Source: Lactiplantibacillus mudanjiangensis (lineage in GTDB: Bacteria; Bacillota; Bacilli; Lactobacillales; Lactobacillaceae). Taken from it: 64,000 nt of DNA. A program made the position numbers and the translations under genes. How positions within the stretch are numbered: position 1 is the first letter of the stretch; every line of letters starts with the position of its first letter. The stretch lies in NCBI RefSeq assembly GCF_005405385.1, contig NZ_BJDY01000007.1:248001-312000 (forward strand), given 5' to 3'. This document shows positions 1,116-56,708 of the stretch, one piece after another. The notes beneath the pieces were generated by a model. The model searched no databases and was not told where the DNA came from. It worked only from the letters and a program-made list of their open reading frames with translations.

Positions 1116-1165
1116 CGATGAAATTTTGATTTTGGGGCTAAGGGTTGAATAAAAGTAACTCACAG

Positions 1166-1486
1166 CTTGCTGCCTACCGTTCGTCCACCTTGAGCCGGAA
1201 CGCTGTGGGCGGACCGGCTCAGCCAAAAAGCGGTCTGAATCGTCGTTTTGAACCACCAAGCCCGTGTTTCAAAAGCGCCAATCTCTAAGCGATAAATCGC
1301 TAAGAGATTCCCACGGCTGGGCTCAATGTGAACTCACTCTCGGTTATGATAGTTACTAGATTGATTAATTTCACGATATAGCCGGAGCCAACCAGTGATG
1401 GCGCCGGCCGTGAAAACATCGTAAGCCCGTACTTTGGCTGGAGTCGGTCCCACAGCCGGCAGAATCACTGGCTGGCGTAGGTAACC
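1166..1486 (+). repeat. Dispersed structured intergenic repeat, copy A
   Basis: One of five related elements. This copy keeps the whole left half (hairpin GAGCCGG...CCGGCTC, the CTCTAAGCGAT/ATCGCTAAGAG hairpin, and the gagtgag-like centre) but lacks part of the right half, including the second arm of hairpin P1. Ends resemble imperfect terminal inverted repeats (see copy B). It lies between the MFS gene and the copper promoter. Two small open frames cross it but look incidental. The rest of the 1027-1590 gap holds only the copper promoter. Confidence 0.85.
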
Positions 1487-1590
1487 AATTAATATTAACA
1501 AGGCTTCCACACTATATTTATGTTTCAATCATTAGTTTACCAAAAATTCCCATGACACCACTTCATGCCATGAGGACCAATTAACTAATT

Positions 1591-5342: not shown

Positions 5343-5373
5343 AAAAGGAATCCAAACGGTTAGATTCCTTTTA
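5343..5373 (+). terminator. Rho-independent terminator after the AraC gene
   Basis: AAAAGGAATC and GATTCCTTTT form a 10-bp stem with a T tail directly after the stop codon. Confidence 0.8.
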
Positions 5374-5424
5374 GTTACTACTAAAAATTGAAAAAATATG
5401 CTGATTGCTAAGCCATACTAAATT

Positions 5425-5831
5425 AGCCACCTACGCCAGTCAGTGATTCTGCCGGCTGTGGGGACCGGTTCCAGCCAAAAAACGGGCTTTCACCTCGCTT
5501 TTGAGCCAAGCTAAGACCGCTAGTCTCAAAAGTCGTCCACATCGTAAGCCCGGAAAACTCATCCGGACTTACGATGTTTTCACGGCCGGCGCCATCACTG
5601 GCTGACTCCGGCTATATAGCAAATACGAATCAATCTAGCAATCACCACCATAACCGAGAGTGAGCTCACATTGAGCCCAGCCGTGGGCGCTCTTTGCGAT
5701 TTATCGCTTAGAGCCTGGCGCTTTTGAAACACATGGGTTTAGTGGTTCAAAACGACGGTTCAGACCGCTCCTTGGCTGAACCGGTCCTTCCACAGCGTTC
5801 CGGCTCAATGTGGGCAAACGTCAGGTGGCAA
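5425..5831 (-). repeat. Dispersed structured intergenic repeat, copy B (most complete)
   Basis: About 407 bp, inverted relative to the other four. Both ends carry related sequence in opposite orientation: GCTGTGGGGACCGGTTCC followed by AGCCAAAA at one end, and on the other strand from the far end GCTGTGG then GGACCGG and AGCCAA, giving imperfect terminal inverted repeats of about 60 nt. Inside are hairpin P1 (5539-5553 with 5563-5577), hairpin P2 (CTTTTGAG arms) and the AGCGAT/ATCGCT hairpin. No transposase or clear target duplication is seen. Confidence 0.85.
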
Positions 5832-6158
5832 ACCACTACAAACTCGTCAATTAACACGGTCTTTAGCTGATCGTAAACCTTTTAAACTAATCTTAACCAG
5901 CTATTTCTTTCAAAATCAGCGTTTTTCCATTCACCCAACCTTTGTCTTGCCAAACCCCAGTCCCTGCTACAGTTCACACAGACTTCACTTGCCAGATTTA
6001 ACGCCTACTGTAACTTAACCGCCATCTTCGCCACGGTAGCTTAACATCCTTGAAATTGTTTTGTCATCTGACGGCGCTAAACTCGGGTCAATCGATTAAG
6101 CAAACTCGAGCTTAGCTAAAAACAACTATCTCTCTTAACAGAAATGGAGTTTATCAAT
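5832..6158 (+). other. Non-coding region upstream of the transglycosylase gene
   Basis: About 300 bases without a credible gene. It may include a long 5' leader; an imperfect inverted repeat (CTCGGGT...ACTCGAG) lies near 6083-6112. No clear promoter could be assigned. Confidence 0.4.
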
Positions 6159-7389: not shown

Positions 7390-7875
7390 ATGTTATATTC
7401 AATTGGTGAAGTCGCCAAAAAACTAGATATCAGTACGTATACACTTCGTTACTACGATAAAGAAGGGCTGTTACCCTTCGTGGATCGCAACGCGGCGGGT
7501 CGACGCGTTTTCAAAGATGAAGACTTCAACTACTTAGAAACCATTAGTTGCTTAAAGGAAGCTGGCCTCCCGGTTAAACAAATCGCCAGTTTTATTGAAC
7601 TATGCTTAGCTGGTGATCGGACTTTAGATGAACGCTACGACTTTTTATTGGAACAAGAAACCGATCTGGAAGCTAAAATGGCTAGCCTTCAACATACATT
7701 GGACTTCCTACGTTGGAAAAAATGGTATTACAAACGGGCACTGGCAGCGGGCACGGAAAGTGTCAATTGCTTGCCCGAAACTACCCTAACTGATCCAGCG
7801 GTTCGTGCAAAATTCGATCAACTCGTTGCTGATGGTGCTGATCCCAAACAGTTGGGTGAATTAGACCGCACCTAG
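7390..7875 (+). CDS. MerR-family transcriptional regulator
   Basis: DNA-binding regulator of 161 aa. Residues 1-70 are the winged helix-turn-helix (YSIGEVAKKLDISTYTLRYY) and the wing, followed by a coiled-coil dimer helix (about 75-120). The C-terminal tail carries a single Cys (SVNCLP) and no metal-binding cysteine pair, so a metal sensor is unlikely. The ATG follows AAAGGAG. It is divergent from the isomerase gene, whose promoter carries a 19-bp-spaced operator. Confidence 0.85.
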   Translation: MLYSIGEVAKKLDISTYTLRYYDKEGLLPFVDRNAAGRRVFKDEDFNYLETISCLKEAGLPVKQIASFIELCLAGDRTLDERYDFLLEQETDLEAKMASLQHTLDFLRWKKWYYKRALAAGTESVNCLPETTLTDPAVRAKFDQLVADGADPKQLGELDRT

Positions 7876-7921
7876 TTGAAAGTCATACTCGTTGATATGG
7901 TAACCGTCAAAAAAAGTTATG

Positions 7922-8150
7922 CTTGCCACCTGTCGTTCGCCCACATTGAGCCGGAACGCTGTGGGCGGACCGGCTCAGCCAAAAGGCGGTCTGAACCGTC
8001 GTTTTGAACCACTAAACCCGTGTTTCAAAAGCACCAAGCTCTAAGCGATAAATCGCTAAGAGCTTCCCACGGCTGGGCTCAATATGGACTCACTTTCGGT
8101 TATGTTAGTGATCTGAAACCAATTAACAAGTCCATGCTGGCGTAGGTGAC
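7922..8150 (+). repeat. Dispersed structured intergenic repeat, copy C
   Basis: Keeps the left half (GAGCCGG...CCGGCTC hairpin and an AGCGAT/ATCGCT hairpin) and only the last 15 bases of the right end (gctggcgtaggtgac); hairpins P1 and P2 are deleted. It lies between the MerR stop codon and that gene's first terminator. Confidence 0.85.
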
Positions 8151-8606: not shown

Positions 8607-11600
8607 ATGACAATGCATACTGATCAAAAAATTCATTATAAAATGTATAAAAAAGGCCGCTTCTGGTTATTCGCCGGTGTTCTAGTTGCCACCGCTTGGC
8701 AAGGCCAAGTATTGGTTCAAGCTGACACGACAACGCCTGCGACAACAAGTACCAGCGAAACCACGACTACTGGCAATGATACGACTGCCTCGACAGTCAC
8801 CTTAAAAGACAGTGCGACCACTCAGACGACTGACGCAACAACAACTAAGGCTACTCAGTCAACAAGCAACACTGAAACCACTGACAATTCGACTACCGAC
8901 ACTAAGACAGCCACTGATACGACCACTACTACGCCTGACGCGAAGACTAGTCAAACAGACACCGACAACACGACTACCTCGGATCAAACTAGCGATGCTA
9001 ATAACACCAAAACACAACCAACAACGGTTCAAGATACGACCACAACAAATACGAAATCGGCTGACACGACAAAACCGGCAACTATTGCTGACACCAGCAA
9101 TACTCCTCAGACGACTAGCCCGGCCAAAGATGCTAATACGACGACAGCCGCTACAGTTGCCACAACTGACAATGCCCCCACAACAGCAGCAACAACGCCG
9201 AAGGTTGCCGCTACGCCAACTGAAAATACCACTAGCAAAACGGTCAATCGGCAAGCATTGCTCAAAGCAGCCACTGCCGTAACAACCACTGACATCGGTA
9301 CTGGCACATTAGGGACCAGCACTTGGCGTATTGATAGCGCGGGCGTCTTACATATTGGTGCTGGTACGTTAGTCGCGGCCTATGACCCGGAATGGAAAAC
9401 CAAATATGGGACTAAAATTACCGCCGTCACTTTTGATGGTCAAGTTACCGCAGCTGCCAATTCAAGTGATTTATTTTACAATCTACCCAATCTGACCACG
9501 ATTACTAATCCTGAAAAATTTGACACTAGTAACGTTACCGATATGACGCAACTATTTCTCGGTGACACCAGCCTCACCACATTAGACCTAAGTAGCTGGG
9601 ACACCAGCAATGTCACTAGCCTGGCAAGCATGTTTTACGGTGATCATAACTTAACTAGTCTGAACATTAGTAAATGGGACACGAGCAAAGTCACCTCCTT
9701 AAGATACACTTTTTACATGGCTAACAGTTTAACTAGCCTGGACTTAGATGGTTGGGACACTAGTAATGTCACCGACATGTATGCGACTTTTGCCACCCAA
9801 AACGGCTATCCTAGTCAGTTGGCAACACTAAAAATCGACAAGTGGAAAACCGGGAAAGTCACGACCATGTTTTCAATGTTTTCTGGCGATCAAAGTTTGA
9901 CCAGCCTGGACTTAAGCAGTTGGGATACGAGCAATGTTAAAGATATGTTCATGATGTTTTATGGCAACACCAAATTGCAATCGCTAAAAGCCAGCACTTG
10001 GGACACCAGTAAAGTTACCGATATGTATCTCATGTTCTATGGTGATAGTGCGCTCACCGACTTAGACCCAAGTGGTTGGGAAACTGGGAATGTCACTAAC
10101 ATGCAAGGTGTGTTTGCACATACAAGCATTGCCAAACTAGACTTGCATACCTGGGATACGAGTAAAGTCACGAATATGATGAATCTGGTTTCTGGTAACA
10201 ACGCCTTAACCGACCTCAACGTTAAAGGCTGGAATGTTGAAAATGTGGTCAACGCATCAATGATTTTTGATGGTGATACCAAACTTGAAACATTGGACTT
10301 AACCGGATGGAACTTGCTTAGCGCTAAGAGCGCCATCAGTATGTTAGCCGATAATCCGGTATTAACCACCATTATCATGCCTGATATGACGATGCCTAAA
10401 GTAACCGATGCTAGTTTTATGTTCGCCAATGATTATGTCTTAACTGCGGTTGATACTGCCAAGCTTGATCTCAGTCAATTACAAGACGGTGAAGCGATGT
10501 TTAATTGCGCTTATGCCCTCAAAACAATCGACACCACCGACTGGAACTTGAGTAATCTGACTGATGCCAGCTACATGTTCTGTGGGACTAGAGCGTTAAC
10601 AACCATGGACACTAGCAATTGGTCGTTAGAAAATGTCACCAATGCGAGCTATATGTTTGGCAATGATCCTAGCCTAACAACCTTGGATACCAGCAATTGG
10701 AAATTCGATCAGTTAATTGATGCCAGTTACATGTTTCTCAACGATGCCAGTCTGACAAGCTTAGGTAACACTGACTGGCACTTGACTCAACTTGGTAATG
10801 CCTTTGACATGTTTTATAACACGCCAAGCTTAACCGCCCTTAATACCAGTAATTGGGGATTAGGCAACCTAACCAATGCCACGCAAATGTTTATTTACGA
10901 CAGTAGTCTAAAATCATTAGACGTCACTAATTGGGATGTCCGCAACTTAGCGCAAGCGCAAAACATGTTTTTTGGTACCACTAATCTGGCCACATTAGAT
11001 GTCTCAAACTGGCAAACCGATAGTTTGGTTAATCCGATCAATATGTTCTATCAAGCCGCTGCGTTAAAACAGCTGGCCGTTAACGGTTGGAATATGAGCA
11101 AAGTGACTGACGCGACTGGGATGTTTAATCAAATGACGTCATTAGAAAGCATCGATCTTTCTAATTGGGATACGAGCCATTTCACGACCGTTGCTGGGAT
11201 GTTTAACCGTGATTACGCCTTAACCAGTGTTAACTTGACCGGTTGGAACACGAGCAACGTCACCGTGATGCGGAACTTGTTCTTTGACACGACCAGCTTA
11301 ACCGATCTCGACCTGTCCAACTTGGATATGACCGCGTTAACTCCTTTCCAAACATTATTAAAAGGCTCCGGCGTGCAAAAATTAACACTCGGAACGCAAA
11401 CCGTCTTAACTCGTGATGGTGTTACTGCCGACTTAGCTGACGTGCCCACGACCGATGGTTACAACGGTCACTGGATCAACACCGAAGGCCAACAATTCAC
11501 GTCCGCTGAACTTATGGCCCTTTACAATGGTACGGATACCGCGGTTGCGGGCACCTATGTTTGGCAAACTGACCAAACAACGCTTGACGTTCATGACACG

Positions 11601-13178
11601 TCAGTCACGCAAACCCACAAGACCACTTGGACAGCCGTGGATAACTTTACGAGTGCGACCGATGCACTTGGCAAGTCACTTACCGCTGCTGATTTAGCCA
11701 CTAGCGGCGATGTTGATTTAACCAAGGCCGGGACCTACACCGTTACCTATACCGCCGCTAATGGTCAAACCAAAACGGCAACCATTACCGTTATTGCCAG
11801 TCAAGCAGGCTTAAACGTCCACGATATGACGGTAACTAAAGGCGCTAACTGGACGGCGCAAGCTGCATTTGCCGGCGCGACTGATCTTAATGGTCAACCG
11901 TTGAGCTTAACTGATATCACTGTCACTGGCGCAGATCAAATCGATACGCAAAAAGTGGGTCAACAATATCAGGTGACCTACAGTTATACCGATGCTAATG
12001 ATAATCCATTTAGCCGGACAATCACTGTCACGATTGCTGATACTCAAGTAAATGTCCTCGCCCACGATACAACGTTGACTCAAGGCCAAGCATGGACGGC
12101 AACAGATAGTTTGACGGATGCCACTGATGCCGATGGTAACGTCATTGATCTCGATGACGTTACGGTTACAGGGACGGTTGATACGAAAATACCGGGTCAA
12201 TATCCAGTCACATTTAGCTATACCGACGTCTACGGCAACACCGCAACTGCTAACGTGATCGTCACAATTGTTGCCACTAAAGCAAGTGTCAACGTTAAAG
12301 ACAGTTCTCTCACCGCTGGTAAATCTTGGACGGCCGCGGATAACTTTGTGAGTGCCACTGACGTTAACGGTCAACCCTTGACCTTAGCAGATATCACGGT
12401 AACCGGTGCCAATCAAGTGATGATCAACACGCCTGGTAACTATACCGTCACTTACAGTTATACCGATAGTTACGGTAACGTCAAATCAGCTCAAGCATCG
12501 ATTACGGTAACTGCCGCAGCAACTAACCCTGACGACAATAATCAAGGCGAAACTGGTGAGACCGTTGATCCCGAAACACCAACTAAACCGGATACTGGAG
12601 ACAATGGCGGCAATACGACAACACCAACTAACCCAGACACTGGGAACAACGGCGGCAACACCACAACACCAACTAACCCAGATACCGGGGACAACGGTGG
12701 TCAAACGACAACACCGACTGATCCTGAAACACCGACTAATCCAGATGCTGGCGATGGTAGTGGCAATACGATCACGCCTAGTGAACCGGATACCACCCCA
12801 ACAACGGATACAACCGCTGGAGATACGATTAATCCAGGATTAACGACTAAGGATCACCCATCGACACCGACAATCGGTACCGAAACGGCCGATTGGGATG
12901 GTGACGCGATCAACACAACAACACCATCATCACCCGCTAAAGCAACGCCAGTAGCTTTAAGCACGACCGCAACAACTCCGGTCACGCAAGTAGCCAAGAT
13001 GACGACAGCTAATGATACTGTTACCGCTGCTAAATCAACTCATACTGCTAAACCAGCTGCGACCGCCTTGCCACAAACCGATGAAAAGACGACGGCAACT
13101 TCGGTCTTAGGCTTAATGCTCCTCAGCGCTAGTGCCCTTATCGCTACTTTAGGTAAAGGTCGCCGGATTGAAAAATAA
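8607..13178 (+). CDS. BspA-like (DUF285) LPxTG-anchored surface protein
   Basis: Sortase-anchored cell-surface protein of 1523 aa. Residues 1-38 are a KxYKxGKxW-type signal peptide (HYKMYKKGRFW). A Thr/Asp/Ala-rich stalk runs to about 210, then comes a domain opening with TSTWRIDSAGVLHIG. From about 300 to 930 there are roughly 23 BspA-type repeats of about 25 residues (consensus SxWDTSNVTDMxxMF). Next are four Ig-like repeats (about 990-1300), three 15-residue PTNPDTGDNGGNTTT repeats, a Thr/Pro linker, and the sorting signal LPQTD with hydrophobic helix and KGRR tail. BspA-like proteins often bind host or matrix ligands; the ligand here is unknown. The tail differs from the two neighbouring surface proteins. 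Confidence 0.9.
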   Translation: MTMHTDQKIHYKMYKKGRFWLFAGVLVATAWQGQVLVQADTTTPATTSTSETTTTGNDTTASTVTLKDSATTQTTDATTTKATQSTSNTETTDNSTTDTKTATDTTTTTPDAKTSQTDTDNTTTSDQTSDANNTKTQPTTVQDTTTTNTKSADTTKPATIADTSNTPQTTSPAKDANTTTAATVATTDNAPTTAATTPKVAATPTENTTSKTVNRQALLKAATAVTTTDIGTGTLGTSTWRIDSAGVLHIGAGTLVAAYDPEWKTKYGTKITAVTFDGQVTAAANSSDLFYNLPNLTTITNPEKFDTSNVTDMTQLFLGDTSLTTLDLSSWDTSNVTSLASMFYGDHNLTSLNISKWDTSKVTSLRYTFYMANSLTSLDLDGWDTSNVTDMYATFATQNGYPSQLATLKIDKWKTGKVTTMFSMFSGDQSLTSLDLSSWDTSNVKDMFMMFYGNTKLQSLKASTWDTSKVTDMYLMFYGDSALTDLDPSGWETGNVTNMQGVFAHTSIAKLDLHTWDTSKVTNMMNLVSGNNALTDLNVKGWNVENVVNASMIFDGDTKLETLDLTGWNLLSAKSAISMLADNPVLTTIIMPDMTMPKVTDASFMFANDYVLTAVDTAKLDLSQLQDGEAMFNCAYALKTIDTTDWNLSNLTDASYMFCGTRALTTMDTSNWSLENVTNASYMFGNDPSLTTLDTSNWKFDQLIDASYMFLNDASLTSLGNTDWHLTQLGNAFDMFYNTPSLTALNTSNWGLGNLTNATQMFIYDSSLKSLDVTNWDVRNLAQAQNMFFGTTNLATLDVSNWQTDSLVNPINMFYQAAALKQLAVNGWNMSKVTDATGMFNQMTSLESIDLSNWDTSHFTTVAGMFNRDYALTSVNLTGWNTSNVTVMRNLFFDTTSLTDLDLSNLDMTALTPFQTLLKGSGVQKLTLGTQTVLTRDGVTADLADVPTTDGYNGHWINTEGQQFTSAELMALYNGTDTAVAGTYVWQTDQTTLDVHDTSVTQTHKTTWTAVDNFTSATDALGKSLTAADLATSGDVDLTKAGTYTVTYTAANGQTKTATITVIASQAGLNVHDMTVTKGANWTAQAAFAGATDLNGQPLSLTDITVTGADQIDTQKVGQQYQVTYSYTDANDNPFSRTITVTIADTQVNVLAHDTTLTQGQAWTATDSLTDATDADGNVIDLDDVTVTGTVDTKIPGQYPVTFSYTDVYGNTATANVIVTIVATKASVNVKDSSLTAGKSWTAADNFVSATDVNGQPLTLADITVTGANQVMINTPGNYTVTYSYTDSYGNVKSAQASITVTAAATNPDDNNQGETGETVDPETPTKPDTGDNGGNTTTPTNPDTGNNGGNTTTPTNPDTGDNGGQTTTPTDPETPTNPDAGDGSGNTITPSEPDTTPTTDTTAGDTINPGLTTKDHPSTPTIGTETADWDGDAINTTTPSSPAKATPVALSTTATTPVTQVAKMTTANDTVTAAKSTHTAKPAATALPQTDEKTTATSVLGLMLLSASALIATLGKGRRIEK
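12579..12713 (+). repeat. Three tandem 45-bp repeats in the surface protein linker
   Basis: Three in-frame near-identical 45-bp units encode PTNPDTGDNGGNTTT-like 15-mers, a wall-spanning region that could vary in copy number by slippage. Confidence 0.8.
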
Positions 13179-16206: not shown

Positions 16207-16225
16207 GATCACTTATTTTGTTAAC

Positions 16226-19200
16226 TTAGTGCCGTTTCCGGAAGAAAGCTAACGTGAAACTTGATAACAAGAGCCCCAATGCCGCTAAGAAGCTCGTTGA
16301 TTGTTCGTTGGTTTGTGGTAAAGTTTGAGCCTTAGTTTTCGCCAACTGCTGCCGTGCAACAGAACGTGATGTCGCGGTCGCCGGCACTGCGGCACTAGTA
16401 TTAGTTGTTGGTATCACCTTGACCTTCTGATCATCCCCCGTTGACGGCGTGGCTACATGTTTAGCCGTCACTGTCGATGATGCATGTGATCCGGACTGAT
16501 TATTAGTCGTATTCGTCTTTGGATCAGTCGGCGTTGGTTTTGCTGGTGGTGTTGGTTCTGGATCAATTGGTATTGCTGGTTCAGTCGGCGTACTTGGTTC
16601 CGGATCAACCGGCGTACTTGGATCAGGGTCAGGCGTTGGCGTGACCGTAGCTGCTTTGACAGTCACCGTTAATGTCTGCGATACCGTGTTGCCAAACTGA
16701 TCTTGATAGCTCACTGTAACGGGATAATCTCCCACAGCCGCTGTATTCACCGTGCCAGTGTACGTTAACGCGCTAGCAGGCAATGTTTGACCTAATGCAT
16801 CAGTCGCTGATTTCACTAAACTGTGCATATCGAATTGTTCACCTTGCGTAATTGTAATAGGATCAACTAATGATAGACTCACCGCACTAATATTAACTGG
16901 GACAAATTCATCTACCGAATTACCATATTGATCTTGGTAGCTTACCTTTAGTTGATACGTCCCTGCTTTCGTTACGTCAACTTCGCTTGAATCATAGGTA
17001 ATGGTTGGATTAGTCACATTTTCGCCATTAGCGGTAACGCCCAATACTGCTTGGCTTGGATCAAAGTTCTCGCCTAGTCGTAAGTTCAAGAATGGTTGGG
17101 TTTGAATAGCTAACTTACTGTCTTGAACAACTACCTCGTATGAGCCGGTGATGTCATTGCCATAATCATCCGTATAACTGACATTGACGGTGTAAGTACC
17201 GGCCTTTTCCGTATTCACATTTTGTATATCATACGTTAATTTTGCTGGATCAATATCATTACCCGCAGAATCCTTTGCGGACAAGATCCCCGCAGTTTCA
17301 TCGAGTGCTTGTTTAGTCGTCAGTGTGACAGGTTGGGTTTGAAGGCTACGGTTATCAACAACGGTTACGATCGTTTGCCGATTTGTGATATTACCAGATG
17401 CATCTTTATAACTAGCAGTTACCGTATAGTTTCCTGCTTTTTGAGGATCAACATTGCTTATAATCGTTAGTCCATTTTCAGTCGTCATCGTCTCACCTAA
17501 TGTCGTCTTACCGGTTTCGATAACCTGCATTGGATCAAAGGTTCCGGTTGGACTGGCAACTAACATCACATCTGGCTTCAAACTTAATTGATCGTCATTC
17601 GCGACAACCATCACCGTAGCCGGTTCAGCTTCGATGATATTGCCACCTACATCTGTATAATTAGCAGTAATCTGATATTCCCCGGGTATATCGAATTTAA
17701 TGTTATCTAAACCGCTAAAAGTTACATCGTCAGCAGTTAACGCTTTAGTCCCGGTACCATCCAGTCCACTATCAAAATAGTCAGTACTACTAAAGTTTTT
17801 CTCAGTATCAGGGCCAATCACAATTGTTGGCGACTTTAATTTAAGCGCTGCTGCCGTATTCATGATTTTAACCGTAATCCGACGTGTTAGCTCCACGCCA
17901 TCCGATGTTTGATAGGCATACACCAGATCATACGTCCCAGGATCAGTAGGTGAAAATGATTCTGCTGAACGATAAACACGGCCTCCAAACGTTTCATCAT
18001 ATCCGAGTATTTTATTATCCTGTACCCAATAACAAATAATACCATCCATACCCAATTCATCATCTGAAATTATTGTCATCATTGGTAACGGCGTAACACC
18101 GTCATCTGATACACCGTTGACTTGGGCTGTAGCTTGCTTCCAAATACTCTCTTTAACATTGTCTTTTCCAAGAACAATAGTCGTATTTTGACCATTTAAA
18201 TAAGCTTGGCTCTTTCGTGAGACTACTGTTACCGTAATCTTAGCTGTCACCTTTTGGCCTAAATCATCAACATAAATAAGTGTGATGGGATAATCACCTA
18301 GCGTATCAACATCTATTTGTCCTTCATATGTTAATAGCGACGTCCTGTTTGGAACCACTAGATCACCTTTTGAATCATAAGTACTTGAACTCGCACCTAA
18401 ATCAAAGTCTTGATCACCTTGATAAATTGAAAAATCCCCGGCCGCAATACTACTCCGATCCAACCGATAAGTTGCTGCCGGACCATCACCCGCTTGACTA
18501 TATAAGTCCATCAATTCTTGACTCGTGTACATTTGGTTAGTTTCCGTATTCAGCCAGCCACTCAATTCATCAACATAAGTCGGCGTAGTGGATGAATCCC
18601 CGATAAACTTGAATTTTGATCCCACACTAAGCGCTTTAAGATTCTGCGTTTCGCTCAACATTGAACTACTGTCAGTAACGTTACTCATATCCCAATCACT
18701 TAGATCCAGCGAGGTTACACCACTCCCTGAAAACATTTCTGACATATTAATATCTGTAACATCATCATCTTTCCAATTCCAATCATCAATAGTCAACTGC
18801 AGCTTTTGTGTCGCTCCAGTTCTTGCAAACATACTTTGAAAATTGCTTACCTTGCTGACATTCCAACCACTAACATCCAGAGACACCAAATTGGTCATGT
18901 CCGCAAAGGTGGCATTCATATTTTCAACATGGCTGGTATTCCAAATAGCACCAGAGCTTGCAAGCGATAGATTCTGTAAACTACTTAAGTCAGAAAAAGT
19001 ATTACCTAAATTTTCAAGTGAACCAGTTTGCCAATTGTCCAATTTTAAGGTCGTAAGATTGCCCATATTTTGAAACATGTAAGACATATTTTTTACGGAT
19101 CCAACTTTTGTCCCCCAACTGGTCAAGTCTAAATCGGTTAAATTATAATCATTACTGAACATGAACGACATATTTTCAACTTGACTAGTGTCTAGATTAT

Positions 19201-20330: not shown

Positions 20331-20353
20331 CAAATTTCTATTTCACCTATCAC

Positions 20354-23300
20354 CTAGTGCCGTTTCCGGAAGAAGGCTAACGTGAAACTTGATAACAAGA
20401 GCCCCAATGCTGCTAAAAAGCTCGTTGATTGTTCGTTGGTTTGTGGTAATTGCGTTGCTTGTGACTTCGTCGTTGCTTTAGCTGCGGCACGCAAGCTAGT
20501 TGTGGCTGCTTGCGCTTGACTAGTCGAGGTCGTTGTCGTTGAACCAGACTTAATCGTGCTTTCTCGATCATGGTCTACCTTAACTAAAGGTACCACGGTT
20601 GGTTGTGATACTGCGGTTGAAGTCGGTACTGGCGCCGTCGAAGTTGGCGTTGTTATTGTCGGGTCGGACTGATTCGAACCAGCCTGACCATCGTTATTAT
20701 TATCCGCAACCAATGGATTCGTACCGTGTTCCAATTCAATATCACTTGGGACACCATCATGATCTGGGTCAGCTTCGTAATGCGCAATCTTTGGTTCACC
20801 ACCAACATTGGTAATGTCAATCACAGTTGCTGCACCATCGCCATCCTTTAAGATAATGTTGCCAATCGAAGCATTTGCCGTTTGCTTTGAAACGACCTTG
20901 CCATCAACAATTTCAGTTACCGTAACCTTCGAAGTTGTTGGATCATACGTATACGTGGTTTCACTATGATCGGACCATTCTTTGGTAATATTAACGACCT
21001 GACCACTCTTATCTTTTTCAGTAATCGTGGTATTGCCGTCACTATCCACCGTCTTACCAAGCACTTTTAACTCACCTGGAATAACATCCACATCGTAGTT
21101 CGGATTATTCACAATCGCTGCTAAATCATAATCCCCAACTGTCTTCGTGTTCGGTTGGTCAACAGTTAATCCAAGGTCACTCAACGTTTCACCAGCTGGC
21201 AACGTACCATCTGTAATCGTTGCTGACGTTTCTGGCGTCGATTCACCAGCAAACATCTCTTGATCACCAAGTTGCACCGTTAGCTTACGTTTAGCAACAC
21301 TTAACTGACCACTGAGCGCTGAGTAATCGTAGTTGGCGTTAACGGCCATCAAACGTGCTAAACCAGCTCTCGACAAGCGAACCGTATACTGACCAGCAGA
21401 TAAGTTATTAGCGGAAACAAGTTGATCTTGCAAGTTGTAGATTTCAAAGTCCGTTTGCATCAAGCCAGCAAAGTTACCGGCACTGAGTTCTTCGGTAAAG
21501 CTTGGCACGTCACCATAAGTGGTCGATACATCTTTAACCCCAGCAGCCGCATCAGCTCTTTCAATCGTCAAGGTCGCTGGTAAAATAGCCACAACATAAT
21601 TGGCACTATTGGCTGTCCCATCAATTTCATAAGTCCCAGCATTTTCACCACTTTGACGGGTTAGCGTGACACCTAAAGCAGAGACATCATCGCCATTCTT
21701 TAAGACGGTTGGATCAACTAAAATCAAGGCTTGATCGCTCTCACCATACGTCTTCGTTTGATCAGCTGCTTGAACGGTAACTACTCGTTTAGTGATGTTG
21801 AAGTCGGCTGGCGTTACGGTAACGTCATAGTTCTTATTACCACTGACACCGGTAATTTTGTACGTGCCGACATTTTCACCGGTTACCCGTGACAAGCTAA
21901 GTTTCAAATCAGCCGCCGTGTCTTGATAACCTAAAGCGGTTGAATCAGTAATCGCTGCAATGGTCAACGCAGGATCAGCATCACCGTAAACTTTGGTTTG
22001 TGTATCTGTTTGTACCGTAATGTGACGTGGCGTGATCGTTAAATCATGACCGACAACGGTTAAATCATAGTCTGAATTAGAAGATTTAACTGTAATGGCA
22101 TAAGTGCCAACGTCATTTCCAGCGACTCGTGTTAACACGATACCAAGATCAGCCAAGGTCTTGCCAGCTGGTAAGTCACCACTCGTCAATTGCCAAGTTA
22201 AGGCTGGATCGTCCTCACCATAAGTCTTCGTCAATGAATCAAGGGTGATTGTGGCCGCACGTTTATGAATTGTAAACGTCCCAGGATCAACAATAATCTT
22301 GTAATTTGAATTTAAGCTAGCTTTATCAGCACCAAGATGAATGGTGTAGGCATTAGCTGATTCACCAGTACCGTCACCTGTATCACGAACTAAAGTAACA
22401 CCTAAGCTGTCTTTCGTATCCCAACTAGCTAAGGCTGGCTTATTAGGATCTGAATTTGGCTCGATTGTCCAATCTAATGCTGGATCAGCATCACCATAAG
22501 TCTTATCCTCGTCAGTCGCTTGAACATGAATCGTCCGTTGACCAATGGTTAATGTTCCTGGTGTCACTGTCACAGCATAGTTTTGGCTATCGCTAGTCCC
22601 TGTAATCGTATACGTACCAACATTCTCGTTCTTATCTGTTCTACTTAATGTCACGTCAAGTGCAGAGGCATCAGTATCATGTACAACCTCGTTGTTAACC
22701 AAGGTACCCTTTGGAATTGTTAAAGTTAACGCTGGATCAGCATCACCATAATCTTTCGTCAAACTATCAGCAGTCACCGTAACTTGGCGTTTGTTAATCG
22801 TATAGGTCCCATTAGTAACTGTTACCAAATAATTATCACTCGTACCAGTACCACTAATCTGATATGAACCAACATTTTCGTCGGCCTTACGTGACAATTT
22901 AATTCCTAACGCTGCTTCCGTATCGGTACCAACCAAAGTTGGTGTCTCGATTGTTAGCTTCTGGTCAGCATCACCATAGGTTTTACTAAAATCACTCGCC
23001 TTAACCGTGATTGCGCGTTTATCAATCGTTAAATTACCCGTCACAAACGTGAAATTATAATTAGCATTATCGGCACTTAACTTAATCGTGTATTTTCCAG
23101 CACCATCACCCGAATCGCGACTGGTCTTAACATTTAATTTTGCTAAAGTATCACCGTTGGTCAATGCACCGGACGTTATTTTCCAAGTCAAGGCTGGCTC
23201 TGTGTCACCATACGTTATTTCAGAACTATCAGCGGTTAACGTAATGGCTTGTTGACTAATTGTAAACTTAGCTGGCGTAACCGTGACTGCATAGTTCTTG

Positions 23301-26254
23301 CTTTCACTGCTACCAGTAATCGCATACTCGCCAACATTTTCACCTGTTTCACGTTTCAAAGTGATTGCTAATACTGCAATAGGGTCTGTATCACCATTAA
23401 CTAACACACTTGCCGGATCATCCAGCGTTAAAGTTGGTTCAGTACCGCCATATGTCTTGCCATTATCAACTGCTTTGACGGTAACGGCTCGTTTAGTGAT
23501 ATCAAACTTACCGTTATTTACAGTCACATCATAATTAGCACTATTACTGGTACCACTAATGACATAATTGCCAACATTTTCATCACCGGTACGTGATAAT
23601 GTCACCCCTAAATCTGTAGCTTTGTCACCGTTAACTAACATTGACGTTGAATCAACTAATGTTAGCGCTGGGTCTGTATCACCATAAGTCTTAGTTTTAT
23701 CGGCCACTGTCACACTCACTTTGCGTTTATCAATCGTGTAAGTTCCATCAGTGACTGTTACGATGTAATTTTTGCTGGTACTCGTACCAGTAATGGTATA
23801 CTTTCCAGCACCTGTACCAGGTTCACGCGTTAATGAAACGTCTAAATCAGCTTCTTTATCACCATTAGCCAAAACCGCGCTTGGATCATCTAACGTCAAT
23901 GTTTTTTCAGCATCACCATACGTACTAGTGATATCTGAAGCTTTGACGGTTACTGCTAGCGGATTAATCGTTAACTTGCCAGCCACAAAGGTAATATCAT
24001 AATTCGCATTATTAGCACTAGCATTAATCGTATAATCGCCAGCATCATTACCCGTATCACGACTCGTGCTAATCTTTAGACTAGCTAAAGTATCACTATC
24101 AGCCAATGAACCAGCTGTTAATTTCCAATTTAATTCCGGATCAGCTGAACCATACGTCTTAGTGTAACTATCAGCCGTTACTGTAATTGCACGCTGACTA
24201 ATCTTAAACGTACCGGGTGTAACCGTAACATTGTAATTTGCACTCGTACTCTTACCAGTGATTGCATACGTATTCACATCTTCACCAGTCACTCGACTCA
24301 AGGTAACCGCTAATGCCTCTTCCTTGTCACCATTGACTAAGACACTTGTTGGATCTTCTAAGGCCAAGGTTGGATCAGCTTCGCCATACGTTTTACCATT
24401 ATCGGCTGCGATAACCGTGACGTTACGTTTGCTAATGGTGAACTTACCATCAGTAACCGTCACATTGTAATTAGCACTATTGCTTGTACCAGTAATCGCA
24501 TAGTCAGCAACATTTTCACCAGTTACTCGACTCAAGGTGACACCCAAATCAGATTCATCATCGCCAGTAACTAAAACACTGGTTGGATCTTTCAACGATA
24601 AAGCAGGATCGGTATCGCCATAAATTTTACCAGTATCAGCTGCTACAACGGTAACGGCCTTTTTATCAATCGTATAAGCACCATCAACAACAGTCACGTC
24701 ATAATTAGTATTGTCAGCACCAGTCCCAGAAATGACATAACTACCAGCATTTTTATCACCCGTGCGACTCAAGGTCACGCCTAATGCAGATTCATCATCA
24801 CCCTTAACCAAAACACCGCTTGGATCGACTAATGTCAAAGTTTCATCAGCATCACCATACGTTATTTCCTTGTTAGCCGCAGTAACTGTGACCGCTAACT
24901 TTTTGATTGTAAAAGTGCCTTTTTCAACTGTTACCGTGTAATTCTTGCTAGAACTACTCCCGGTAATATCGTAGTCACCAGCATTTTCGCCAGTTGCTCG
25001 ACTCAACGTGACATCTAAGTCAGCTTCTTTATCACCATTGACTAAAACGGATGATGGATCAACCAATGTTAAAGTTGGATCAGTAGCAGTACCATAAGTC
25101 TTGCCAGTATCAGCAGCTTTAACCGTCACTTCTCGTGGATTGATTGTTAAAGTCCCTGAATTAACGGTAACTGAATAGTTAGCGTTATGACCACTCCCTG
25201 TAATCGTATAAGTTTCGACATTTTCACCAGTATCACGTGTATATGTCATGCCTAAACCAGCTAGCGTATCTGAGCCAACTAACGAACTACTACCAGTTGC
25301 TAAGGTAATATTATTAGTTGGATCGGCATCACCATACGTCTTTTGGATATCTGAAATCTGAACCGTAATGGCCCGTGGCGCAATCGTAAAGACGCCTTCG
25401 TTGGCACTTGTATCCAGTGACACCGTATAATTCGAATTTAAAGTAGCTGTTGGATCGATGCTAATCGCGTAAGTACCAGCAGTTTCACCACTAGCACGTA
25501 CTAATTTGACACCTAGATCATCCAAACTATCTCCATTAACCAACCCATTAGTTGAACTATTAGCTAAATCCAAAGTTGGATCATCAGTAGTCCCATAGGT
25601 TTTGGCATGGTTATTGGCCGTAACAGTAATCGCTTTTGGTACTACCGTTAATTTAGCTGTTCCAAATGAGGTAAAAGTATAATTAGTATCTTTGGTTAAA
25701 GCATCCTGTGCAGCTGCCGTATATTGGATGGTGTAATCACCACCAGCTTGTAATTGCTTTGCAGTTACCACCTTACCAGTTGTATTATCAATAATTTCAA
25801 AATCAGTGGAAGCGAGTGTATGGTCAGCTGCCGCCGTGCCTAATTTGCCGCTTAACGTAAGCGCCGTACCATCACTGTTAGTCCCACCATAAGTTGCAGT
25901 TGTGGCATTAACAGTTGGCGCCACATCTGCTGGCGTAATCGTTAAGGTACTAGCCACGAACAAGCCAGCATCAGCATTCAAGGTCTTCAAATAGGCTCGA
26001 CCGGCATCAGTCATTTTTACAATGTAAGTCCCGACATTCTTTGGTGTCACTGACGTTGTAGAATCAGAACCACTGTAATACACAAAATAGCCGGCTTGTT
26101 GCATACCCGCGATTTGTGCCGCAGTCAAAGTCCCAAAACCAGACCCAAATTCAACATTTGGTAATGGCAAGTCCTGACCATAAACAGCCGTCGTCGTGTC
26201 TAAAGTTGCTAAAACATCCTGTGCATCCTTATTTGTGGTTGATAAGTCATCCAA
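20354..26254 (-). CDS. C-terminal fragment: MBG-repeat stalk and LPxTG anchor
   Basis: This frame of 1966 codons from its first ATG (open further, to about 26565) begins with an alpha-helical spacer. It then has about 17 canonical MBG repeats of 70-80 residues (each with a KTYGDxDP motif and NYxVTV...TI) plus divergent units at both ends. Near the C-terminus is a Ca-binding-like DPDHDGVPSDIELEHGTNP segment, then a Thr/Ser linker and LPQTN with a hydrophobic helix and RKRH. No ribosome binding site supports independent translation, so it is probably silent unless the frame is restored. Confidence 0.75.
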   Translation of the reverse strand: MDDLSTTNKDAQDVLATLDTTTAVYGQDLPLPNVEFGSGFGTLTAAQIAGMQQAGYFVYYSGSDSTTSVTPKNVGTYIVKMTDAGRAYLKTLNADAGLFVASTLTITPADVAPTVNATTATYGGTNSDGTALTLSGKLGTAAADHTLASTDFEIIDNTTGKVVTAKQLQAGGDYTIQYTAAAQDALTKDTNYTFTSFGTAKLTVVPKAITVTANNHAKTYGTTDDPTLDLANSSTNGLVNGDSLDDLGVKLVRASGETAGTYAISIDPTATLNSNYTVSLDTSANEGVFTIAPRAITVQISDIQKTYGDADPTNNITLATGSSSLVGSDTLAGLGMTYTRDTGENVETYTITGSGHNANYSVTVNSGTLTINPREVTVKAADTGKTYGTATDPTLTLVDPSSVLVNGDKEADLDVTLSRATGENAGDYDITGSSSSKNYTVTVEKGTFTIKKLAVTVTAANKEITYGDADETLTLVDPSGVLVKGDDESALGVTLSRTGDKNAGSYVISGTGADNTNYDVTVVDGAYTIDKKAVTVVAADTGKIYGDTDPALSLKDPTSVLVTGDDESDLGVTLSRVTGENVADYAITGTSNSANYNVTVTDGKFTISKRNVTVIAADNGKTYGEADPTLALEDPTSVLVNGDKEEALAVTLSRVTGEDVNTYAITGKSTSANYNVTVTPGTFKISQRAITVTADSYTKTYGSADPELNWKLTAGSLADSDTLASLKISTSRDTGNDAGDYTINASANNANYDITFVAGKLTINPLAVTVKASDITSTYGDAEKTLTLDDPSAVLANGDKEADLDVSLTREPGTGAGKYTITGTSTSKNYIVTVTDGTYTIDKRKVSVTVADKTKTYGDTDPALTLVDSTSMLVNGDKATDLGVTLSRTGDENVGNYVISGTSNSANYDVTVNNGKFDITKRAVTVKAVDNGKTYGGTEPTLTLDDPASVLVNGDTDPIAVLAITLKRETGENVGEYAITGSSESKNYAVTVTPAKFTISQQAITLTADSSEITYGDTEPALTWKITSGALTNGDTLAKLNVKTSRDSGDGAGKYTIKLSADNANYNFTFVTGNLTIDKRAITVKASDFSKTYGDADQKLTIETPTLVGTDTEAALGIKLSRKADENVGSYQISGTGTSDNYLVTVTNGTYTINKRQVTVTADSLTKDYGDADPALTLTIPKGTLVNNEVVHDTDASALDVTLSRTDKNENVGTYTITGTSDSQNYAVTVTPGTLTIGQRTIHVQATDEDKTYGDADPALDWTIEPNSDPNKPALASWDTKDSLGVTLVRDTGDGTGESANAYTIHLGADKASLNSNYKIIVDPGTFTIHKRAATITLDSLTKTYGEDDPALTWQLTSGDLPAGKTLADLGIVLTRVAGNDVGTYAITVKSSNSDYDLTVVGHDLTITPRHITVQTDTQTKVYGDADPALTIAAITDSTALGYQDTAADLKLSLSRVTGENVGTYKITGVSGNKNYDVTVTPADFNITKRVVTVQAADQTKTYGESDQALILVDPTVLKNGDDVSALGVTLTRQSGENAGTYEIDGTANSANYVVAILPATLTIERADAAAGVKDVSTTYGDVPSFTEELSAGNFAGLMQTDFEIYNLQDQLVSANNLSAGQYTVRLSRAGLARLMAVNANYDYSALSGQLSVAKRKLTVQLGDQEMFAGESTPETSATITDGTLPAGETLSDLGLTVDQPNTKTVGDYDLAAIVNNPNYDVDVIPGELKVLGKTVDSDGNTTITEKDKSGQVVNITKEWSDHSETTYTYDPTTSKVTVTEIVDGKVVSKQTANASIGNIILKDGDGAATVIDITNVGGEPKIAHYEADPDHDGVPSDIELEHGTNPLVADNNNDGQAGSNQSDPTITTPTSTAPVPTSTAVSQPTVVPLVKVDHDRESTIKSGSTTTTSTSQAQAATTSLRAAAKATTKSQATQLPQTNEQSTSFLAALGLLLSSFTLAFFRKRH
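21560..25650 (-). repeat. About 17 tandem MBG-domain repeats
   Basis: Units of about 210-240 bp, each encoding a KTYGDxDP-containing domain, lie head to tail. Protein-level similarity is clear; neighbouring units share long DNA stretches (for example those coding for NSANYNVTV), which favours recombination and copy-number change. Confidence 0.8.
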
Positions 26255-39419: not shown

Positions 39420-41353
39420 TTCTCAATTACTCCTATCAATTGGTTATATAAGTCTTGATCCGATTCACTATTTATTAATATTTCTAAGCGATGTGGATTG
39501 CTGACCAGCTCGTAAAAGTCATCAAAAATCTCATCGATTTCGGCTTGGGTCAAATGCTTGGTCATCGCTAAGAAAAAGATGATACTCACTTGTTGCTCGC
39601 CCCATTGAATCGGCTTGGCCAACGTGCAAACAACAATCCTTGGTTGCGCAATCAAGTCAGGTTCGGCATGAGGAACGGCATAATTACCAAAACTCGTGTA
39701 AGACAAGCTTTCTCGCTTCAAGGCGCTAGCAACGATGCCAGGCTTAGCTAATCGTTGATCTACTAATTGTTGACCTAACAAATTAATAACTGCCTGCCAA
39801 CTTGTTAGCGTGCGTTTCGCAAATACCAGATTGGGTGACAACATGCTTAAAATCTTTCGTTTAACTGGATGAGTTTGATGCGTTGATTGACGAATCGCTT
39901 GTTGGACAAATTGCACTTCATTGCTTTCTAACAATGGTGAAACAATCACCGTCGGAATCGTCGCGACTTGAAGTTGAATCGTGCTAATAATTAAATCAAC
40001 CTGCGTTAGCTTGTGCTGCTGTAAATCTTGTATCGACCACACCCCAACAATTTTTAACTGCGGAAACTGTTTTCGAACTTTGGCGGCCAACAATTGCGCA
40101 GAGCCTAAACCAGTACTACAAACAATGACCACATTAAGGCGATCCGAGACCAACCGCTGTCGCTCCAAGAAAGCCTCTAAATGTAAGGCTAAGTATGCGA
40201 CTTCATCATCATTCATCTGAATCTGTTCATGTTGTTCATAGTATCTCGCTAGATTTAACCCTTCATCAAAAGCCTGCGTATAATTCTGCTTGATGCTTGC
40301 CATAAACGGATTACTGATGGTCGCATTGACTTTGAGTCGTTTAATGGCCGATTCCAAATGCACCGTCAAGCCGACTAACAATTCCTGATCATAGCCAAAG
40401 TCTTTCAAAAGTGTCGGTAACTCACTAAATGCCGGCGTTGCTTGTGGATCAATCTCTAAATGCACCCCACCAGCCGTAGCGGCAATTAAATGAATTTGGA
40501 TATAGCTCACTTCTTCAACTGGTAACTGCACGTTAAACGTTTGATCCAACCGCTTAGCTAACCGTGTGGCGTTAGTTAATTGTTGTTGACCGATTTGTGG
40601 TTTAGCCGGATGGGTCACCTTAATCGGATTACCATCGCGGACCCGCTGAATCGCAATTGCCAAATGAATGACTAATGATTGAAACGCATAATCAGAAATA
40701 GTTAGCTCCCGCTGGGCGACAAATTGATTAACAATGGCGATCAATTGCTTAACCAACGCCGCTGGTAACAAGGTATTATTGGCTAATTCTTGGTAACTCA
40801 CGACATTCTGTTTTTGCCCTGATTCAACCCGCCAGTGCTCACCCCAAAATGTACTTAATAGTCGAAACAACAATTGTCGTTTTTGTTGTTCACTGGCAAG
40901 CAAGCGAATGCCCCGTTTCGGATGATGATCGAGGGTCATCTGTTGTGCAGCTAGTTGTCGTTCTAACTGTTGTAAGTTTCGTTCAATGGTTTTGGCACCA
41001 ATAAATAATTGAGTCGCTAAGTCGCCAACGGTAATGAAGTCACTTGTCTTTAACAGCTGTGTCAAAATATAAGTGACCCGATCGTGATCATTATCTGGAA
41101 TAGCCGTTTGTTGTTGTAACTCTCGCAATAATCGTTGTGGCTCCTCCAAATCACCGACTAATGTGATCCCAATTCGTGGCTGCCGTTTAATCGTGATGAA
41201 GTGTTCCGCTAATACCGGTTCGATCACTTGCAAGTCATGATAAATCGTCTTGGTCGACACCATTAGTTGGGTTGCCAACTGACTAGCGGTTGTTTGCCGA
41301 ACACTCAACAATTGTTGAACTAAATTAAGTTGTCGCTCATTTAAATTCGCCAT
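39416..41353 (-). CDS. PRD-containing transcriptional activator (BglG/ManR type) with EIIB and EIIA domains
   Basis: 645-aa PTS-controlled regulator. Two N-terminal helix-turn-helix domains (ATQLMVSTKTIYHDLQVIE; VGDLATQLFIGAKTIERNL) show that it binds DNA rather than RNA. Then come two PRDs (about 170-390, with His in VIHLAIA and LALHLEAF), an EIIB-like domain (VVIVCSTGLGSAQLLA, with Cys) and an EIIA domain (YAVPHAEP, with His). Activity should depend on phosphorylation by the PTS it controls. GAGGTG precedes the ATG, and it is the first gene of the operon. Confidence 0.9.
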   Translation of the reverse strand: MANLNERQLNLVQQLLSVRQTTASQLATQLMVSTKTIYHDLQVIEPVLAEHFITIKRQPRIGITLVGDLEEPQRLLRELQQQTAIPDNDHDRVTYILTQLLKTSDFITVGDLATQLFIGAKTIERNLQQLERQLAAQQMTLDHHPKRGIRLLASEQQKRQLLFRLLSTFWGEHWRVESGQKQNVVSYQELANNTLLPAALVKQLIAIVNQFVAQRELTISDYAFQSLVIHLAIAIQRVRDGNPIKVTHPAKPQIGQQQLTNATRLAKRLDQTFNVQLPVEEVSYIQIHLIAATAGGVHLEIDPQATPAFSELPTLLKDFGYDQELLVGLTVHLESAIKRLKVNATISNPFMASIKQNYTQAFDEGLNLARYYEQHEQIQMNDDEVAYLALHLEAFLERQRLVSDRLNVVIVCSTGLGSAQLLAAKVRKQFPQLKIVGVWSIQDLQQHKLTQVDLIISTIQLQVATIPTVIVSPLLESNEVQFVQQAIRQSTHQTHPVKRKILSMLSPNLVFAKRTLTSWQAVINLLGQQLVDQRLAKPGIVASALKRESLSYTSFGNYAVPHAEPDLIAQPRIVVCTLAKPIQWGEQQVSIIFFLAMTKHLTQAEIDEIFDDFYELVSNPHRLEILINSESDQDLYNQLIGVIEK

Positions 41354-41388
41354 TCAATCACCTCTTTTTGGTTTAACTTTGTAACTTT

Positions 41389-41415
41389 AGTATACCGATT
41401 GTTTAAGCGCTTACA
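41389..41415 (-). promoter_or_regulatory. Promoter and cre site of the PTS/alpha-mannosidase operon
   Basis: On the minus strand TATACT (41389-41394) is a -10; TGTAAGCGCTTAAA (41402-41415) just upstream matches the CcpA cre consensus at 13 of 14 positions, indicating catabolite repression. Confidence 0.65.
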
Positions 41416-46480: not shown

Positions 46481-46591
46481 TAGTATCACGCTGTTTTTAT
46501 GATAAGTCAATGGCAAAATTAATTACATTTTAATCAAAGTTAAAAGTTGCTTTTAAACAATTATCGTCGATAAGACCAAAACTAGACTTAC

Positions 46592-46867
46592 TTGCCGCCT
46601 TACTGTTCGCCACATTGAGCCGGAACGCTGTGGGCTCACTCTCGGCTACGATCCTAACTAAATTAGCATCCGCATGATAACCGGAGCTAACCAGCGATGA
46701 CGCCAGCTGTGAAAACATCGTTAGTCCGGATGGTTTTCCCGGGCTTACGATGTGGACGTCTTTTGAGACTGGTGATTTGGGCCAGGCTCAAAAGCGAGGT
46801 GGAAGCCCGCACTGTGGCTGGAACCGGTCCCCACAGCAGGCAGAATCGCTGGTTAGCGGAGGTGCCT
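46592..46867 (+). repeat. Dispersed structured intergenic repeat, copy D
   Basis: Keeps both ends and the right half with hairpins P1 and P2, but lacks the inner part of the left half (jumps from gaacgctgtgggc to tcactctcgg). It lies between the T-box leader and the GH13 gene. Confidence 0.85.
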
Positions 46868-46910
46868 ATTTCATACAATTAAAGTTGCACTCACGATCAT
46901 AAATAACTGC

Positions 46911-55512: not shown

Positions 55513-56376
55513 ATGAAATATGCTATTTCCGCCGCAACTGGCCATCTTGGTCAACTCGTTATCCAGCACCTACTAAAATTAGTGCCCGCAACCGATGTCG
55601 TGGCCATCGTCCGAAATCCAGATAAAGCCAAGCAAGTTTTACCAGCAGACATTGAAATTCGCCAGGCCGATTATACAGATGTCACGGCATTAACTAATGC
55701 ACTCGCTCACGTTGACCGCTTATTATTTATCTCATCGATTCCAGGCACGGCTACTCCACGCCAAGTGCAACATCAAAACGTGGTTCAGGCTGCTCAAGCC
55801 GCTAACGTTCATTACATTGCTTACACTAGTTTTGCTAAAGCTGAAACCGCTCAATCACCCTTGTCAGCCGATCATATCGCGACTGAAAAAATGATTAAAG
55901 CTAGCGGTATCGCTTATTCATTTTTGCGTAATGCATGGTATTTAGAAAATGAAAGTAGCTATCTAAAAGCTGCGTTGGCTGGCGAAGACGCCGTTTATGC
56001 GGCCGGTGACGGTCAGATGAGCTTTGCCCTTGAACGTGAATACGGTGAAGCAGCCGCTAAAGTTCTAGCCAGTTCCACAACTAAAGCGATTTATGAATTC
56101 GGTGGTCAACCATCATCTTATGCAGACTTACAAACAGCCCTACACCAAGTTCTCGATACTGATTTTCAGTTTAAGGCCGTCTCTGATGACGATTATCGAC
56201 AAACCATGTTATCCGCTGGCCTAGATGCTCAATTCGTTGAAGTCTTACTCGCCATGCAAGTGATGATGCGCCACAATGAATTAAACGTGCCAACCACTGA
56301 TTTAGCTGACGTTCTCGGTCGTCCCGTTACGTCATTAGTTGACGCAGTTAAAGAAGTTTTGAACACTTTAAATTAA
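55513..56376 (+). CDS. NAD(P)H-dependent quinone reductase-like protein (QorB/NmrA type)
   Basis: 287-aa cytoplasmic oxidoreductase. SAATGHLGQLVIQHLL is the NAD(P)-binding loop, and IAYTSFAKAET and SFLRNAWYLENE are typical of QorB/YtfG-like atypical SDRs. These reduce quinones with NADPH. An AAAGGAG site precedes the ATG, and it ends operon I. Repeat E lies between its stop and the operon terminator. Confidence 0.8.
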   Translation: MKYAISAATGHLGQLVIQHLLKLVPATDVVAIVRNPDKAKQVLPADIEIRQADYTDVTALTNALAHVDRLLFISSIPGTATPRQVQHQNVVQAAQAANVHYIAYTSFAKAETAQSPLSADHIATEKMIKASGIAYSFLRNAWYLENESSYLKAALAGEDAVYAAGDGQMSFALEREYGEAAAKVLASSTTKAIYEFGGQPSSYADLQTALHQVLDTDFQFKAVSDDDYRQTMLSAGLDAQFVEVLLAMQVMMRHNELNVPTTDLADVLGRPVTSLVDAVKEVLNTLN

Positions 56377-56405
56377 TTAATAGTCGCTGTTCAAAAATGG
56401 ATTGA

Positions 56406-56638
56406 CTTGCCACCTGCCGTTCGCCCACATTGAGCCGGAACGCTGTGGGCGGACCGGTTCAGCCAGTGATGGCGCCGGCCGTGAAAATATCGTAAGTCCG
56501 GCTGGTTTTCCCGGGCTTACGATATGGACGACTTTTGAGACTAGCGGTTTGGGCTAGGCTTAAAAGCGAGGTGGAAGCCCGTATTTTGGCTGGAGCCGGT
56601 CCCCACAGCCGGCAGAATCACTGACTGACGTAGGTGAC
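56406..56638 (+). repeat. Dispersed structured intergenic repeat, copy E
   Basis: Keeps both ends and the right half, with P1 (56487-56501 with 56511-56525, 15 bp) and P2 (56532-56544 with 56554-56566), but the left half is deleted from gttcagcc on. It lies between the QorB-like gene and its terminator. Confidence 0.85.
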
Positions 56639-56708
56639 TATTTTAGTCTATCTTAAGTCAATAGGCTTCTATCGTCAGATTTATCTTTCAATCTTTAGCT
56701 CATTAATC

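Follow-up and report, generated by a model that had tools for sequence, protein, structure and literature searches.

The repeat at positions 5425-5831 of the DNA analysed here, a 64-kb stretch of the Lactiplantibacillus mudanjiangensis genome (hereafter the window; the genome comprises 3.29 Mb in 13 contigs), raises the question of whether it belongs to a mobile element, to a structured RNA family, or to both. A sequence-only reading had reported five related intergenic copies of 230-410 bp and offered a MITE-like element and a structured RNA family as alternatives.

Extent, ends and copy number of the element

The five repeats are real, as they are recovered by a repeat finder, which pairs 1165-1353 with 7921-8109 (91% identity) and 5409-5605 with 56459-56655 (90%, complementary strands), and by a 546-column profile built on 30 full-length copies, which matches all five places with best E values per place from 3.2e-73 to 2e-158. 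The length originally given to them had to be revised, because the full-length element measures about 545 bp and the five copies of the window are decayed or internally deleted members. Internal stretches are missing from four of the five, and in the copies at 46592 and 56406 the deletions lie, by eye, at the short direct repeats GTGGGC and CAGCCA. The copies and the folding modules within them, scored with the module model R1, are the following.

1138-1535, minus strand: MITE copy A, internally deleted (profile match 1144-1504; ends within 3 mismatches), with decayed ends CTAAGGGTTGAATA at 1138-1151 and TTTCAATCATTAG at 1523-1535
1202-1317, plus strand: right-type folding module of copy A (64.7 bits)
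5381-5852, plus strand: MITE copy B, the one first reported, nearly complete (profile match 5402-5852, E 2e-158), with a decayed left end CTAAAAATTGAAAA at 5381-5394, read by eye, and an unrecognisable right end
5455-5586, plus strand: left-type folding module of copy B (128.4 bits)
5680-5796, minus strand: right-type folding module of copy B, facing the left-type one (61.7 bits)
7870-8150, minus strand: MITE copy C, left module deleted (profile match 7870-8126; the remaining end as first drawn), adjoining the stop codon of ORF 7390-7875
7958-8073, plus strand: right-type folding module of copy C (61.1 bits)
46536-46887, minus strand: MITE copy D, interior of the right module deleted (extent from the profile)
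46706-46837, minus strand: left-type folding module of copy D (128.3 bits), itself included in the 60-row training alignment A1
56364-56698, minus strand: MITE copy E, interior of the right module deleted (profile match 56364-56697), with the end CTTTCAATCTTTAG at 56685-56698 in the sequence
56478-56609, minus strand: left-type folding module of copy E (127 bits)

The window also holds repeats of other kinds, namely a 1523-codon ORF at 8607-13178 with repeats at 78-nt spacing, surface-protein-like by reading, an extended array of divergent units, each about 234 nt, within a coding region at 21590-25500 (families D1-D4), and a 98-nt repeat (D20) at 16224-16321 and 20352-20449, 96% identical and 4.1 kb apart.

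Genome-wide collection and alignment of copies, which had been proposed as a check, gave 224 first-look candidates for the 411-bp core in its own genome, and the 40 of these that were scored are near full length at 86-89% identity, the query copy itself excepted. Alignment of 30 copies with their flanks revealed conservation past the reported ends, and the true ends are formed by the inverted repeat CTAAAGGTTGAAAG (left; its inverse on the right), about 70 bp outside the repeated core. The end sequence has 132 matches in the genome at no more than one mismatch and its reversed control none, while the terminal repeats of the window copies are decayed. The motifs GCTGTGG, GGACCGG and AGCCAAAA, earlier taken for terminal inverted repeats, owe their similarity to two internal modules lying in opposite orientation, and the evidence that decides the MITE question sits outside the coordinates first drawn. 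A profile search of 464 kb (the window, 340 kb of the same contig and 60 kb of another, a non-random sample) found 53 places corresponding to 51 elements, two pairs being halves split at stretch borders. Element sequence makes up about 4% of this sample (19.3 of 464 kb, by profile-match lengths), and about 360 copies are estimated genome-wide provided that this density holds across the 3.29 Mb, in agreement with the few hundred predicted earlier. Copy numbers from the genome searches are lower bounds, as no more than 40, 2 (core, family-wide) or 8 (R1) candidates per genome were scored. A plasmid or phage origin was set aside, positions 5372-5900 having no match among 72,556 plasmid and 50,697 phage records, a set outside which near records possibly lie.

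Target-site duplications are common around the element. Among 40 end pairs, some of which (for instance window 40963-41390 and L120 427-701) are probably paired by chance, flanking octamers match at 7 or more of 8 positions in 16 (shuffled mean 0.66, maximum 4, 2000 shuffles) and flanks match at 6 or more of 7 positions in 10 (shuffled mean 0.75, maximum 5), one pair falling in both counts; 15 have no good 7- or 8-bp duplication, one of these matching at 9/9 and a few probably being chance pairs. The targets are AT-rich and the duplications mostly of 8 bp. The earlier statement that no clear duplication could be seen holds at the single testable window copy (1138-1535) but not elsewhere in the genome. 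Presence and absence at orthologous sites, also proposed as a check, revealed one insertion with its empty site: the copy G000:C7:216622-217165 of this genome is bordered on both sides by TCAAATAA, and in L. daowaiensis (L205), where both flanks align through the orthologous site, TCAAATAA occurs once and the element is absent. In L. songbeiensis (L206) and L. dongliensis (L207) TCAAATAA likewise occurs once, and the right flank alone aligns through the site. The three loci were assigned to these species at 100% identity.

Partner insertion sequence and spread across relatives

A transposase gene between ends of this type was found in relatives. In genomes G008 and G020 a pair of ends, spaced at 1565 and 1567 bp, encloses a single open frame (459 and 466 codons), and the transposases of loci L102 and L120 belong to NF049925, an IS4-family model, with 481 and 460 bits (cut-off 250). 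Five of the 13 insertion sequence (IS) loci examined carry CTAAAGGTTGAAA ends, as the MITE does, three carry CTGAAACTTGAAAG and five have no clear ends; the IS at L120 is flanked by ATAGGAG twice, and that at L102 has no clear duplication. The ISPepr1 subgroup of IS4 is characterized by a length of 1500-1600 bp, ends of the form YT-AA-YTT---A, a duplication of 7-8 bp and AT-rich targets (PMC2266710). The partner shares seven of the eight conserved end positions, the 7-8 bp duplications and the AT-rich targets at 1565/1567 bp, and by length, ends and duplication it fits an IS4-family IS of the ISPepr1 type. Unlike such an IS, the MITE lacks a transposase, and its two modules are absent from the IS loci. 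A search of 14 loci, several overlapping one another, that surround IS4-type genes or their relics found no module (best E 0.12, filters off); hence the modules are dispensable to the IS itself, and their reading as ends of an autonomous element was rejected. The genome of L. mudanjiangensis retains a relic of an ISPepr1-type IS at L157 (G000:C2:536500-540500), where an exact end is followed by remnants of both gene ends; neither an NF049925 match nor an intact partner gene was found in it.

The genome groups with Lactiplantibacillus: one 390-codon ORF, aminotransferase-like by reading, has its best named matches in L. songbeiensis (93%), L. daowaiensis and L. dongliensis (92%). In a scan of the genus, at least one end match occurred in 17 of 21 genomes, and matches clearly exceeded the reversed control in nine (G000, G004, G008, G009, G011, G014, G016, G018 and G020). 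Elements of G020 and G009 have identical ends and a diverged interior; two of their 14 loci hold an open stretch of at least 120 codons, that of L111 covering element sequence and that of L112 beginning at the element end. Because the repeats share terminal repeats, 8-bp duplications, an empty orthologous site and an IS with matching ends, their nature as a non-autonomous transposable element (MITE), as judged at the level of sequence, is demonstrated, and the MITE-like alternative of the first reading is thereby upheld. Mobilisation in trans by such transposases is inferred.

The family extends beyond the genus. With the core DNA as query, matches were found in 36 of 301 Lactobacillaceae genomes from 8 of 40 genera, its own genome included. 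With model R1 they were found in 24 of 395 genomes from the order, 23 of them in Lactobacillaceae and one in another family; the latter (G571) has a single weak match at E 1.2e-4. Among named loci, R1 was found in 4 of 24 from Lactobacillaceae (L. songbeiensis, L. dongliensis, L. herbarum and Secundilactobacillus odoratitofui) and was unmatched, at E up to 1, in all 56 from other families (families assigned by name). Stretches of other genomes were picked around matches, and densities there are not estimates. In G167 (L249-L254) amplified module pairs have different ends, GATTCTTTCTTAAATT-like by eye, which suggests an element with another terminal repeat. Amplified elements that bear modules but have no CTAAAGG ends were noted at L249-L254 (G167), L255-L260 (G013) and L266-L267 (G094).

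Structure, strand and arrangement of the folding module

Each full element holds two convergent modules, each consisting of a closing stem and two three-way junctions. In this model the long stem P1 closes the module, the short stem P2 (GGAC/GTCC or CGAC/GTCG) inside it encloses the hairpins P3 and P4, and the hairpin P5 follows. The model was assessed on an alignment of 60 non-redundant modules from 24 genomes and five genera; modules with fewer than 150 matched profile positions were left out, and five of 65 non-redundant modules were dropped before covariation was counted, three as reverse-strand duplicates and two as poorly aligned rows, one of which (L126) was later scored as a module by R1 at 69 bits. 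Across the 36 modelled pairs, P1 excluded, 93.2% of 2123 cells are paired as compared to 71.1% after shuffling, and both sides have changed with pairing kept in 32 of the 36. The covariation score is 0.557, against 0.160 in the shuffled control, which kinship can inflate, and 0.06-0.09 with partners slid, a control that retains kinship. Diverged copies within G035, G007, G018 and G268 have 91-93% Watson-Crick pairs (67-80% shuffled), and left-type modules of this genome 94.8% (78.7% shuffled).

Whether the fold acts on one strand was assessed by counting G.T and A.C cells on pairs found from both strands, with RNase P from 30 Lactobacillaceae, treated alike, as the yardstick. The modules gave 33 G.T and 61 A.C cells, a ratio of 0.54 (bootstrap 0.35-0.80), and RNase P gave 65 and 7, a ratio of 9.29 (4.55-34). 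The excess of G.U over A.C that is expected of a one-strand RNA is thus absent from the covarying stems of the module. With each strand's own best fold, G.T:A.C was 53:73 forward and 122:51 reverse for the modules, and 336:19 on the true strand and 131:70 on the wrong strand for RNase P. Rfam had no match in the window at gathering scores and none for 5360-5920 at E up to 10, and no module at five other loci had a gathering-score match; some weak matches below threshold lie close to modules (L128 10930-10996 and L113 137-283 among them) and were taken as chance. The alternative of a structured RNA family was therefore right as to a conserved, strongly covarying module and fails as to the G.U excess of a one-strand RNA. 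In view of this missing signature, the fold is probably maintained either at the DNA level or in the two orientations alike. Strand-neutral pairing could reflect folded DNA, RNA selected both ways, or palindromes maintained via template switching, the last of which is disfavoured as the whole explanation because conservation extends to unpaired columns (at least 90% in 20 of 58, and in 19 of 72 paired columns).

Modules recognised by R1 number 70 across the 464 kb sampled, 131 across 56 loci from other genomes and 9 across the 80 named loci. Neighbouring modules less than 450 bp apart face each other in 68 of 70 pairs, two pairs being tandem and none divergent; one pair of this genome, split by a stretch border, entered as two lone modules. 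The facing arrangement recurs in other Lactobacillaceae, also outside CTAAAGG-type elements. In G035, from a different genus, 80 kb contain 13 modules, six in facing pairs and seven alone. The seven lone modules may be MITEs in their own right; neither clear ends nor duplications were found there (inverted-flank scores 16.3 within and 13.6 between copies). A 40-bp perfect palindrome (100% opposite-strand self-match) lies in the same genome at L124 6013-6052.

Competing explanations and significance

We consider it probable that both properties hold jointly, that is, a MITE of about 545 bp moved in trans by ISPepr1-type transposases and carrying a selected, strand-neutral fold. Transposases of this type, supplied in trans, would have moved the MITE, and their gene would subsequently have been lost from this genome. 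The fold would be under selection in a form blind to strand. Most likely the two ends of the element would fold as DNA, single-stranded or cruciform, and thereby aid its movement or persistence; alternatively, the fold would be a hairpin-rich 3'-end element readable from either side. The former is favoured. A counter-point to this explanation is the 122:51 ratio of the reverse-strand own fold, though wrong-strand RNase P gives such an excess too. Further counter-points are that no intact partner gene was found in this genome, that 15 of the 40 end pairs show no good duplication, that the IS loci carry no module and that the lone modules of G035 have no clear ends.

The rival that survives best is a purely selfish, functionless MITE, whose fold would be a by-product of template switching in palindromes or of inheritance from source copies. 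It agrees with the loss of modules from many copies of this genome (profile places) and with the small pairing excess in its amplified family, where the 30 best whole elements have 97.0% pairing versus 95.6% shuffled and 9 of 869 cells are double-changed. We nevertheless hold it to be doubtful, because unpaired positions are conserved as well and because in other genera the subfamilies, though diverged, retain a single fold and the facing arrangement.

A second rival starts from the genomic place of the elements. As stated in the first reading, the window copies lie between genes, one of them reaching the last bases of a called ORF, and a single place of the 53 in the sample falls inside a called ORF. 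Using genes from a simple ORF caller and expectations from intergenic length, with edge or inside-ORF places left out (9 of 53 here, 2 of 47 elsewhere), gaps between convergent genes were found enriched both in this genome (19 of 44 against 18% expected, p 1.1e-4) and elsewhere (20 of 45 against 22%, p 6e-4), and divergent gaps were avoided (1 of 44 and 3 of 45). RNA hairpins selected both ways at gene 3' ends, with a role in termination, insulation or the stabilisation of mRNA where genes converge, would account for this enrichment, for the strand-neutral pairing and for the mirror layout, in which transcription from either side reaches a sense module first. However, depletion of divergent gaps is equally expected from harm to promoters, and the 3'-end bias could be plain promoter avoidance; the 60-module alignment, read by eye, has no conserved T-runs following the hairpins, and the ten lone modules between tandem genes, seven in the same and three in the opposite orientation, are too few to tell. 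We regard selection for such hairpins as rather unlikely, and folded DNA of the element's ends as the tentatively preferred role of the fold.

A one-strand structured RNA ferried by the MITE would suit the complex junctions, the conserved unpaired bases and the strong covariation. It was set aside as the main reading by the wobble test and is very improbable, given also the lack of an Rfam match and the opposite orientation of the modules, by which a single transcript would hold one sense and one antisense copy.

REPINs are inverted pairs of palindromic units, a likeness to the paired modules described here. Movement of REPIN-like units by Y1 (RAYT) transposases can be given next to no credence and is largely refuted, for although inverted palindromic pairs, intergenic position and high copy number recall REP/RAYT systems as outlined in PMC3733652, no association of Y1 with the element was seen across 20 genomes (modules and no Y1 match in G018, G020, G306 and G133; Y1 and no element DNA match in G001, G002, G012, G015 and G019), and in this genome the elements are bounded by terminal repeats and by duplications. 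The modules further differ from REP/REPIN units in their length of about 130-200 nt with several hairpins.

RUP, NEMIS/Correia and BOX are bacterial MITEs, short, intergenic, present in many copies, bounded by terminal repeats and moved in trans. The present element differs from them by its two convergent multi-junction modules that covary across genera and by its ISPepr1-type partner. attC sites and parvovirus-type terminal palindromes are cases of folded DNA, with small palindromes within larger ones and inverted at both ends; their likeness to the element is one of analogy alone, no recombinase or Rep partner having been identified here. Among the open-licence literature matches listed the element is undescribed. 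As a MITE it joins a known class, and the paired multi-junction module, which spreads wider than the MITE and has no Rfam match, makes up the new part. We tentatively raise the possibility, less likely than not but worth weighing, that the paired module represents a new class of functional folded DNA, in which two convergent multi-junction structures conserved across Lactobacillaceae would be recognised as single-stranded DNA or cruciform by a putative factor and would travel with several unrelated transposase systems without being tied to any single one.

Taken in terms of its meaning, the analysis names a putative driver of a MITE family to which about 4% of the sample belongs, and brings to light a folded module that covaries, is unmatched in Rfam and recurs in no fewer than eight Lactobacillaceae genera. 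The comparison of G.T with A.C cells against the RNase P yardstick provides a way of deciding whether a repeat family folds as DNA or as RNA, and with model R1 others can map the family and seek a factor that binds the module. Should the fold work at the 3' ends of genes, many transcripts would be touched by it, and should it work in mobility, it would represent an unusual end structure common to more than one transposase.
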